A DNA stretch of 45,963 nucleotides from Rhodospirillaceae bacterium (lineage in GTDB: Bacteria > Pseudomonadota > Alphaproteobacteria > TMED109): assembly GCA_902579545.1 (NCBI GenBank), contig CACHHO010000006.1, forward strand, positions 1 to 45,963, read 5' to 3'. Within the stretch, counting starts at the first letter, position 1. Each line of letters starts with the position of its first letter. The notes under the pieces were generated by a model. The model worked only from the letters and a program-made list of their open reading frames with translations, was not told the DNA's origin and made no database searches. Position numbers and translations under genes: made by a program. Of this stretch, positions 34,475 to 36,655 are shown piece by piece.

Positions 34475-35707
34475 ATGGAAAATTATAGAGTATTAGCTAG
34501 ACAGTATAGGCCAGTAAGGCTTAATGAAGTAATAGGACAAAATTTTACTGTTACAGCTCTTACAAATGCATTCAATATAAATAAGCTTTCACATGCATTT
34601 TTATTTACTGGAATAAGAGGTGTGGGTAAAACTACCATTGCTCGAATAATAGCTATGGGATTAAACTGCAAGATGGACGATAAACCTGTCGCTAATCCTT
34701 GTGGCAAATGTGAAAACTGCATACAAATTTTAGAAGATAGGTATGAAGATGTTTTAGAAATTGATGCAGCATCAAATACAAGTGTTGACGATGTAAGAGA
34801 AATAATAAGCTCACTAAAATACAGACCTTCAAAAGGCTTATACAAAGTTTTTATAATTGATGAAGTACATATGTTATCCAACTCAGCTTTTAATGCACTT
34901 TTAAAAACAGTTGAAGAGCCACCTAGTTTTGTTAAATTTATTTTTTGTACCACTGAAATTCAAAAAATTCCTATTACAATTATTTCAAGATGCCAGAAAT
35001 ATAGTTTAAATAGAGCGTCTATAAAAGAAATATACGATTATCTTTTTAAGATAAAAACAAAAGAAAATATTGATATATCGGATGAAGCTATAAAAATAAT
35101 TGCCAGAAACTCAGAAGGATCTATAAGAGACAGTTTAACTATATTAGATCAATGTATTCTAGGTGTTGAAAATTCAAAAATAGACTCTTATCAAGTAAAC
35201 AAAATTATGGGATTTACTAACAATAAAAATTTATTAGACTTATTTAAAAACATAATAGAGGGAAATATTTCTACTTCTGTTGAAGAATTAAATAAAATAT
35301 ATTATCAAGGAGTTGAACCAAGCAAAATCTTAGAAGGATTACTTAATTTAAATTATAACTTAATTTCAGCATTAGCATCTGGTAAAAATAAAGAAATATA
35401 TGATTTAACTTTATTTGAGAATATATCAAAAAAATGTAATATTCCTTTATTGAACCAGATATGGCAAATGCTAGTCAAAGGTAAACAAGAGATGATAGTT
35501 GTAGCTTACCCGATTGAAGCATTAGAAATCACTATTATTAGAATTGCTTATACATGCCGATTGCCTAGTTTAGAAGAAGTGGTTAATAGTATAAAAAAAG
35601 AAAAAAATAATGAATTAAATTTAAATATTGATAATAATGAAATAGGAAATGATATAAAAAAAATTTTAGAGATTTTTCCAGATGGGAAAATAGTCAAAAA
35701 AGATTAA
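34475..35707 (+). CDS. dnaX: DNA polymerase III clamp-loader subunit DnaX, gamma-like short form
   Basis: A 410-residue AAA+ ATPase that drives loading of the sliding clamp. Walker A is GIRGVGKTT (46-54); the zinc site is C65, C76, C79 and C82; Walker B/DEVH is IIDEVHML; SRCQKYSL holds the arginine finger (SRC). Domains I-III run to about residue 365. The tail is only 45 residues, against the long tau-specific domains IV-V that bind DnaB and Pol III alpha, so the full product is near E. coli gamma (431) in size, not tau (643). The last residues, KKILEIFPDGKIV, still resemble the extreme C-terminus of longer alphaproteobacterial DnaX proteins. The SRP RNA is upstream and ybaB downstream. Confidence 0.95.
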   Translation: MENYRVLARQYRPVRLNEVIGQNFTVTALTNAFNINKLSHAFLFTGIRGVGKTTIARIIAMGLNCKMDDKPVANPCGKCENCIQILEDRYEDVLEIDAASNTSVDDVREIISSLKYRPSKGLYKVFIIDEVHMLSNSAFNALLKTVEEPPSFVKFIFCTTEIQKIPITIISRCQKYSLNRASIKEIYDYLFKIKTKENIDISDEAIKIIARNSEGSIRDSLTILDQCILGVENSKIDSYQVNKIMGFTNNKNLLDLFKNIIEGNISTSVEELNKIYYQGVEPSKILEGLLNLNYNLISALASGKNKEIYDLTLFENISKKCNIPLLNQIWQMLVKGKQEMIVVAYPIEALEITIIRIAYTCRLPSLEEVVNSIKKEKNNELNLNIDNNEIGNDIKKILEIFPDGKIVKKD

Positions 35708-35727: not shown

Positions 35728-36039
35728 ATGAAAAACATGGGCGGATTACTGCAACAGGCACAACAGATGCAAAGAAAAATGATGGAAATTGATAAGAGGT
35801 TAAATGATATGGAGGTTACAGGGTCTGTTAGTGGTGGTTTAGTAAAGGTTACAATGAGTGGCAAAGGTAATATGAAAAGCATTAAAATAGATCCAAGTTT
35901 AAAAGAAGACATTGAGGTTTTAGAAGATTTAATATTAGCTGCATTTATAGAAGCAAAAAAAAATGCTGATAAGTTATCAGAGGAGGAAATGAAATCAGCT
36001 ACTGGAGGCATGCCAATGCCTCCAGGACTCAAGTTCTAA
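35728..36039 (+). CDS. ybaB: YbaB/EbfC family nucleoid-associated protein
   Basis: A 103-residue DNA-binding protein that forms dimers shaped like tweezers. MKNMGGLLQQAQQMQRKMME is the N-terminal helix, followed by a beta-sheet region with VTGSVSGGLVKVTMSGKG and a helical C-terminus ending in a Gly/Pro/Met-rich tail. A perfect AGGAGG Shine-Dalgarno (35716-35721) lies 6 nt before the ATG, the strongest in this operon, consistent with an abundant protein. The dnaX-ybaB-recR order is widely conserved in bacteria; the recR ATG comes two bases after its stop. Confidence 0.95.
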   Translation: MKNMGGLLQQAQQMQRKMMEIDKRLNDMEVTGSVSGGLVKVTMSGKGNMKSIKIDPSLKEDIEVLEDLILAAFIEAKKNADKLSEEEMKSATGGMPMPPGLKF

Positions 36040-36040
36040 A

Positions 36041-36655
36041 ATGTATTCAAAAGAAATTGATTTTTTAATAAAATTATTATCAAGTCTTCCAGGCATTGGA
36101 CCAAGATCAGCTAGAAGAATATCATTGCAGTTAATAGCAAAAAAAAATACACTGATGTTACCTTTAGGGAAAATGATAACTGATGTAGCGAATAAAATAA
36201 GTATTTGTATAAATTGTGGGAACTATGATTCTGTAAATCCTTGTAGCATATGTATAAATAATAAAAGAGACAAAAGTATTATTTGTGTGGTTGAGGAAGT
36301 TTCAGATTTATGGGCATTGGAAAGAGGAAATTTATATAATGGAAAATACCATGTATTAGGAGGAACATTAGACGCAATGAAGGGAATAAGCCCCGAAAAA
36401 TTGAATATAGAATCTTTGTTTGAAAAAATAGAAAAACAAAATATAAAAGAAGTTATACTTGCAACTTCTTTGACTACTGAAGGTCAAACTACTGCTCATT
36501 ATATAATTAGCAAGTTTAAAAATATTGAAACAAAAGTTACTCGTCTGGCTAGAGGGCTACCTGCGGGTGGAGAGTTAGATTATTTGGATGAGGCTACCTT
36601 AGGGCAAGCTTTGTTTGAACGTACAATAGTAAAAAATAAGATTAAAGATGAATGA
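36041..36655 (+). CDS. recR: Recombination mediator protein RecR
   Basis: A 204-residue protein of the RecFOR pathway that helps load RecA at gaps. The helix-hairpin-helix LSSLPGIGPRSARRISLQL is at the N-terminus, the C4 zinc finger follows (CINCGNYDSVNPCSIC), then the TOPRIM domain (CVVEEVSDLWALE) and the YHVLGGTLDAMKGI segment. Length is standard (about 200). It overlaps the def start by 8 nt. Confidence 0.96.
   Translation: MYSKEIDFLIKLLSSLPGIGPRSARRISLQLIAKKNTLMLPLGKMITDVANKISICINCGNYDSVNPCSICINNKRDKSIICVVEEVSDLWALERGNLYNGKYHVLGGTLDAMKGISPEKLNIESLFEKIEKQNIKEVILATSLTTEGQTTAHYIISKFKNIETKVTRLARGLPAGGELDYLDEATLGQALFERTIVKNKIKDE

Follow-up and report, generated by a model that had tools for sequence, protein, structure and literature searches.

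The dnaX gene of the analysed window, a stretch of 45,963 nucleotides from a Rhodospirillaceae bacterium, probably encodes a minimal tau, composed of the clamp-loader domains I-III and a C-terminal tail for tethering DnaE, the alpha subunit of DNA polymerase III (Pol III). The fold that separates domain III from the tail in sister genera is absent. The tail is retained in this gene and recurs in other short DnaX proteins of the class, and the C-terminal region of DnaE is kept.

The dnaX gene and its surroundings

The gene (positions 34475 to 35707, forward strand) starts with ATG and encodes a protein of 410 aa, which has the length of gamma and a tau-type tail ("mini-tau"). The original prediction of a gamma-length DnaX with intact domains I-III was upheld by the open reading frame, Pfam, NCBIfam and the fold alike. 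TIGR02397 scored 408.2 bits (cut-off 250), which places the protein in the DnaX family, and PF13177, PF22608 and PF12169 also exceeded their cut-offs. AAA+ domains I-II occupy aa 1-230 (34475 to 35164, forward; PF13177 at 22-180, PF22608 at 186-228), and domain III, the oligomerisation collar, occupies aa 238-371 (35186 to 35587, forward; PF12169, E 6e-24). PF12362, PF12168 and PF12170 were absent among the Pfam matches at E<=1; thus neither DUF3646 (PF12362) nor domain V (PF12170), i.e. no globular part of tau, is present. By its best NCBIfam match and the kind of its tail, the protein resembles the long alphaproteobacterial DnaX (NF006585/PRK09111, DUF3646 type), but it differs from them in lacking DUF3646, and its match (aa 2-382) scored 470.6, below the model cut-off of 604.

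An AlphaFold model, based on a 3-row alignment, had a mean pLDDT of 74.7, an intact fold of domains I-III and a helical domain III. When it was used as a Foldseek query, the first 34 matches were E. coli clamp-loader chains (356-372 columns, 35-36% identity). After residue 365, 45 residues follow, ending in IGNDIKKILEIFPDGKIVKKD, and 39 residues lie beyond the Pfam match of domain III. They consist of a linker with weakly conserved letters (aa 372-389; 35588 to 35641, forward) and the tail (aa 390-410; 35642 to 35704, forward) with its core IGNDIKKILEIFPDGKI at 390-406, a proposed Pol III alpha-binding helix. The pLDDT is low throughout 378-410. For the tail, whose structure prediction was suggested along with the original prediction, a helix was drawn at 389-400, but with pLDDT under 50, and the model says nothing firm about it.

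The linker also contains an A7-G-A7 run (35593 to 35607, forward). Speculatively, a -1 slip at this site would end the frame after ~3 codons and give a tail-less product of ~380 aa. Since the length of the A-run is not conserved in relatives (A6 to A9), we do not claim that a tail-less gamma is produced by slippage.

Past the dnaX stop, the remaining two frames close at 10 and 5 nt, and ybaB (35728 to 36039, forward) starts 20 nt downstream, too close for dnaX to continue in another frame; recR (36041 to 36655, forward) lies next to it. In the other nine genomes with complete short genes (see below), the sole long open run beyond the dnaX stop is as long as ybaB, whose start lies 10-23 nt downstream. 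A frameshift or split gene was thus ruled out by frame closure in the window and by the adjoining ybaB in relatives, in agreement with the original prediction, in which no frameshift had been seen.

Short DnaX as a trait of three genera

The window DnaX and nine relatives complete to the end, all from genera g1, g4 and g5, are short (409-428 aa stop-to-stop). These nine relatives share 55-71% identity with the window DnaX, and the tail is common to all. An eleventh genome of this short clade (G003), with dnaX cut at a contig end, was left out of the length count, and L012, which contains ambiguous letters, was dropped from A1, the tree and the genus-to-genus identity comparison. In the rest of the family, complete DnaX proteins from g2, g6, g7 and g8 measure 547-615 aa, and 469 aa are visible in g3, where the gene lies at a contig edge.

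None of the 11 short-clade genomes, one 97%- and one 91%-complete genome among them, gave a DUF3646 match over cut-off, so its relocation to a separate gene was ruled out; a sub-cut-off match in G001 (E 0.01) has three internal stops. Among the remaining 17 genomes of the family, 13 contained DUF3646 over cut-off. As for the other four, G014 and G017 gave no DnaX match, a contig end truncates dnaX in G018 (its 23.5 bits fall below cut-off) and G020 gave only a weak DnaX match (E 2.5e-5), which we take to be another clamp-loader subunit.

A second dnaX was searched for and not found in the window's genome (67.6% complete). The single other match was weak (28% identity, residues 17-273) and is taken to be HolB. 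The same picture emerged from G010 (97% complete), and a second dnaX was thereby rejected on the basis of both genomes. HolA was present over cut-off in 8/11 short-clade genomes.

Identity of the missing part

Compared with sister genera, the piece missing from the short clade is the DUF3646 fold between domain III and the tail. The original prediction had named domain IV instead, and in this respect it has to be corrected. Domain IV (PF12168) was detected in the E. coli tau control and in none of 11 scanned DnaX from the class, namely seven from the window's family (five long, two short), L031, L032 and two further long proteins. As it is absent from the long DnaX scanned as well, the sequences suggest that a domain IV of E. 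coli type was probably never there to lose in this lineage. Coupling to DnaB by means of a part resembling domain IV indeed lacks an explanation here, but equally so in the long relatives scanned. The DUF3646 model matched Caulobacter among its named controls, which, together with the NCBIfam and Pfam matches, suggests that the class is alphaproteobacterial. A comparison of DUF3646 with domain V of E. coli revealed no homology (hhalign 0.2%), and the two folds are therefore not equated here.

Conservation and relationships of the tail

The tail of the short clade matched the ends of long class members in register (hhalign 96%, E 4e-9), while 52 control blocks reached at most 6.5%. This confirms the suspected likeness to longer DnaX. 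The originally predicted loss inside the protein, sparing its extreme C-terminus, is also supported. Long DnaX of the class typically end in DPLVKAVLETFPGAxI.

A position-specific matrix was trained on 24 long tails, all from outside the window's family (L104 and L117 left out). With this matrix, each of the ten short tails scored higher than any C-terminus among the 39 control ORFs from the window, and 0-26 of 1000 shuffles were as good. Within its own protein, the tail was the top-scoring window in 9/10 short DnaX, the exception being L011 (2.8 for the tail vs 4.4 for the best window elsewhere), and an internal window matching the weaker short tails occurred in up to 2/39 control ORFs. Even among fold-bearing DnaX the tail does not occur throughout: L020 and L022 of g8, L032 and L156 scored no better than some controls. 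The E. coli tail fails this matrix, too. In the alignment, the long DUF3646-containing DnaX of g8 (L020, L022, L023, L025, L026) have tails with insertions and without the Phe.

Among the three short genera, identity amounts to 69% in the tail and 68% in the AAA+ part, vs 43% in the linker and 40% in domain III. Phe401 forms an invariant column in the alignment of 25 DnaX without DUF3646. A gamma in the strict sense would terminate with domain III and have no tail of tau type; here, a tail is present and conserved.

The relationship to E. coli was approached in two steps. A set of PF12170-type tails, E. coli included, matched the long tails of the class in register (89%; 26 control blocks at most 3.1%). 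L214 (wrong frame) and the near-copies L201, L202, L187 and L210 were excluded from this set. Its direct comparison with short tails gave 0.2% for the window's clade and 23.6% for the other short tails (profile without L148, L146 and L147), and the single E. coli tail gave a non-significant 0.6% against the tails of long class members. As the short tails have no direct match to the PF12170-type set, the link to E. coli leads via long DnaX, and we infer it on that basis.

DnaE, the presumed partner

DnaE was found in 7/11 short-clade genomes and six sequences were aligned; truncated, broken or duplicate rows (L049, L052, L056, L058) were dropped. The possibility that alpha lacks its tau-binding region, raised in the original prediction, was checked, and the reverse was seen: the QxxLF clamp motif is kept in 6/6, as is the OB region, and the C-terminal tau-binding region comprises 68-71 residues in five complete proteins (54 in G009, cut at a contig end). 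Tau-contact residues reported for E. coli alpha are L1097, L1098, Y1119 and L1128 (PMC11869525). Equivalents of L1097 and Y1119 are Leu and Tyr in 5/6 sequences each, in a weak alignment, and those of L1098 and L1128 are not kept. Because the tau-binding region was aligned at only 11-27% identity, these residue correspondences are soft.

The OB domain of the short-clade DnaE shares 17% identity with g2/g3/g6/g7, vs 44% among those four genera; the figures for the palm are 56 vs 73. The SGHPL motif of the relatives is absent from the OB of the short clade (L050:263-3688 from the window's genome, L046, L047, L051, L053 and L054). We considered whether fold loss is generally accompanied by divergence of the DnaE OB, and rejected such a rule: the OB/palm ratio is 0.28-0.37 in the window's clade vs 0.41-0.58 in 11 other short-DnaX lineages (DnaE was found in 11 of the 13 such genomes in which it was sought, G118 and G257 being the two others). 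In G057, the OB ratio of DnaE (L180) is 0.32, within the low range of the window's clade, and its tau-binding region measures only 41 residues.

In DnaE, the spacer from the OB to the tau-binding region comprises 23-75 residues in families f56, f142, f130 and f49 (L165, L167, L168, L172, L176, L179), 14 in E. coli and 8-18 in the rest. Such an insert occurred in 4/9 fold-less vs 0/12 fold-bearing families (one-sided ~0.02, calculated by hand and uncorrected for phylogeny, with the window's family entered in both sets). Possibly, the slack was shifted from tau to alpha in these families; the insert is not seen in the window's clade.

Recurrence of fold-less DnaX in the class

In a survey of the class, 274 of 289 genomes gave matches. 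Among the matches listed, and with 80 further genomes searched (small genomes favoured), 16 further DnaX without DUF3646 were found, representing ten coded families and the metagenome contig L031. For all 25 fold-less DnaX, the absence of DUF3646 was judged by our own model: none matched below E 0.19, whereas 4/4 long proteins outside the training set did match. According to the tail matrix, the tail is located at the C-terminus or close to it in 13 of the 16 (nine families and one metagenome contig). The other three, L141 and the f18 pair L146/L147, failed this test, but an aligned Phe occupies the tail position in 25/25 fold-less DnaX, these three included. When loss of the fold was mapped by parsimony on a quick tree of the class, at least five changes were required, two of them forced by well-supported branches.

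We also determined the length of the leash between Pro364, the anchor in domain III, and Phe401 of the tail. It equals 37 residues in 9/9 short-clade proteins measured, vs 138-151 in long DnaX of the window's family (n=5). It spans 138-205 residues (median 173) in 35 long DnaX, measured by alignment column, and 23-107 in the 25 fold-less DnaX, with family f103 at 23-25.

Other dnaX layouts were encountered as well. DnaX of G057 (L220, 546 aa) has the tail and no DUF3646 by our model, and judging from its sequence it may be a further fold-less or a diverged case; in G116, G307 and G095, the fold was confirmed present on checking. In f6 (3/3 genomes) and f139 (2/2), a frame-0 dnaX ORF of gamma length stops at an A9/A10 run or directly behind it (L107, ~2620-2650; L123, ~1590-1615; L124, ~1640-1665; L126, ~1525-1550; L127, ~1520-1550) and the remainder of tau lies in another frame, resembling slippage-made tau. 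The remainder of tau is likewise found in another frame in L128 (f106), without a long A run, and in L138/L152 (f59) and L145 (f154).

Origin of the short gene

The gene order dnaX-ybaB-recR is the same in 3/3 long-DnaX relatives examined (L014, L017, L020), an argument for internal deletion within the family. Alternatively, the short dnaX might have come by transfer, an origin that would be compatible with other readings of the protein itself. In the tree of domains I-III, the short clade groups with other fast lineages, apart from the long DnaX of its own family, and short DnaX are 43-47% identical to the long forms of the family, no nearer than to many others of the class. That tree, however, was flagged for long branches and biased composition, and the gene order common to short and long relatives speaks against transfer. 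We therefore regard transfer as the less probable origin, albeit one to be taken seriously.

Discussion

A model consistent with these observations can be proposed. Domains I-III, by homology and fold, represent an ordinary clamp-loader subunit. The last ~20 residues would form a short helix that docks, as in E. coli tau, on the tau-binding region at the C-terminus of DnaE, a step based on the two-step profile alignment and on published E. coli biochemistry. In E. coli, the alpha-binding part of tau was reported to be its last 18-25 residues; the last 18 are used for binding and 626-636 are required, and the mutation I618X abolished alpha binding and was not recoverable in the chromosome (PMC11470591). 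By cryo-EM, the last 23 residues of E. coli tau reach the tail of alpha and its globular part touches the fingers (PMC4703070). Binding of alpha by the tail in this lineage would mean that each DnaX subunit can still tether one polymerase core, on a leash of 37 residues instead of the 138-151 of the family's long forms, while the second contact, made in E. coli by the globular domain of tau with the alpha fingers, would be missing. A contact with DnaB via tau would not be expected from the recognised domains, in short and long relatives alike. The short leash would also alter the geometry of the replisome.

According to the original prediction, the functions of tau were lost and coupling had to be done differently. 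This view is not supported, given that the kept tail is the presumed counterpart of the alpha-binding part in E. coli, that DnaE preserves its clamp motif and C-terminal region, and that 13 of 16 other fold-less DnaX have this tail too. A true gamma, in which alpha is no longer tethered or is tethered by another protein and the tail is a relic or caps domain III structurally, nevertheless has precedents. The DnaX of Serratia symbiotica was described as devoid of tau domains IV and V, and gamma was deemed sufficient by the authors (PMC5013485); E. coli gamma alone supports clamp loading, although joining of alpha subunits is beyond it (PMC3290774 for both). Yet a tail as conserved as the AAA+ part, and far more so than the linker and domain III, is unlikely to be a relic, and its recurrence at the end of other short DnaX and the region kept in DnaE point in the same direction. 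We thus find a true gamma improbable. A tail preserved for a partner other than alpha, such as DnaB, SSB or a protease adaptor, appears to us no more credible than that. The essential gamma of Caulobacter is cut from tau by proteolysis (PMC5009743, PMC7566177), which indicates that DnaX C-termini can have other handlers, C-terminal mutants of E. coli tau were reported to affect DnaB dilation too (PMC11470591), and a direct profile link of the short tails to the E. coli-type tail is missing. Against this stands the two-step match, in register, to a tail set that holds the E. coli alpha-binding peptide. Finally, a normal tau hidden by a frameshift, split gene or assembly error might be suspected from the five other groups (f6, f139, f106, f59, f154) in which more of tau lies in another frame. 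With other frames closing within 10 nt in the window, ybaB 10-23 nt past the stop in the other nine genomes and DUF3646 over cut-off in 0/11, including the two nearly complete ones, such an artefact is hardly conceivable.

The preferred reading, a minimal tau, can be placed among known systems. With E. coli tau (643 aa), the window DnaX shares domains I-III, the gene order dnaX-ybaB-recR and, via long DnaX of the class, a C-terminal tail in matching register, but it has neither domain IV (PF12168) nor the domain V fold (PF12170), and its leash is far shorter. It resembles E. coli gamma, a frameshift product, in length and in domains I-III, but unlike gamma, which has no alpha-binding tail, it encodes the tail in frame. 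The shrunken DnaX of Serratia symbiotica is similar in having lost C-terminal tau domains in a reduced genome; it differs in having been reported as gamma-like (PMC5013485). In open-licence literature, as far as its accessible text goes (including PMC5013485, PMC3017870, PMC12926913, PMC12448304 and PMC13220808), we found nothing on DUF3646 or on the tail after loss of the fold.

Whether the tail alone, on a leash of fixed length, couples Pol III alpha in a short-leash replisome, and the tau fold was discarded repeatedly in the class, is in our view an evenly balanced question. If so, the polymerases would be held against the collar, the swing of the lagging-strand core would be limited, and the replisome would lack the long, flexible arm that textbook models assign to tau. 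In E. coli tau, a folded domain V and a disordered tail occur together; here the two parts are separated. If the tail remains once the fold goes, the tail would be the indispensable coupling device and the fold would be regulatory. The DnaX of these bacteria would then offer natural constructs with a defined leash (23-107 residues in fold-less, 138-205 in long forms) for testing how much slack the recycling of polymerases needs.
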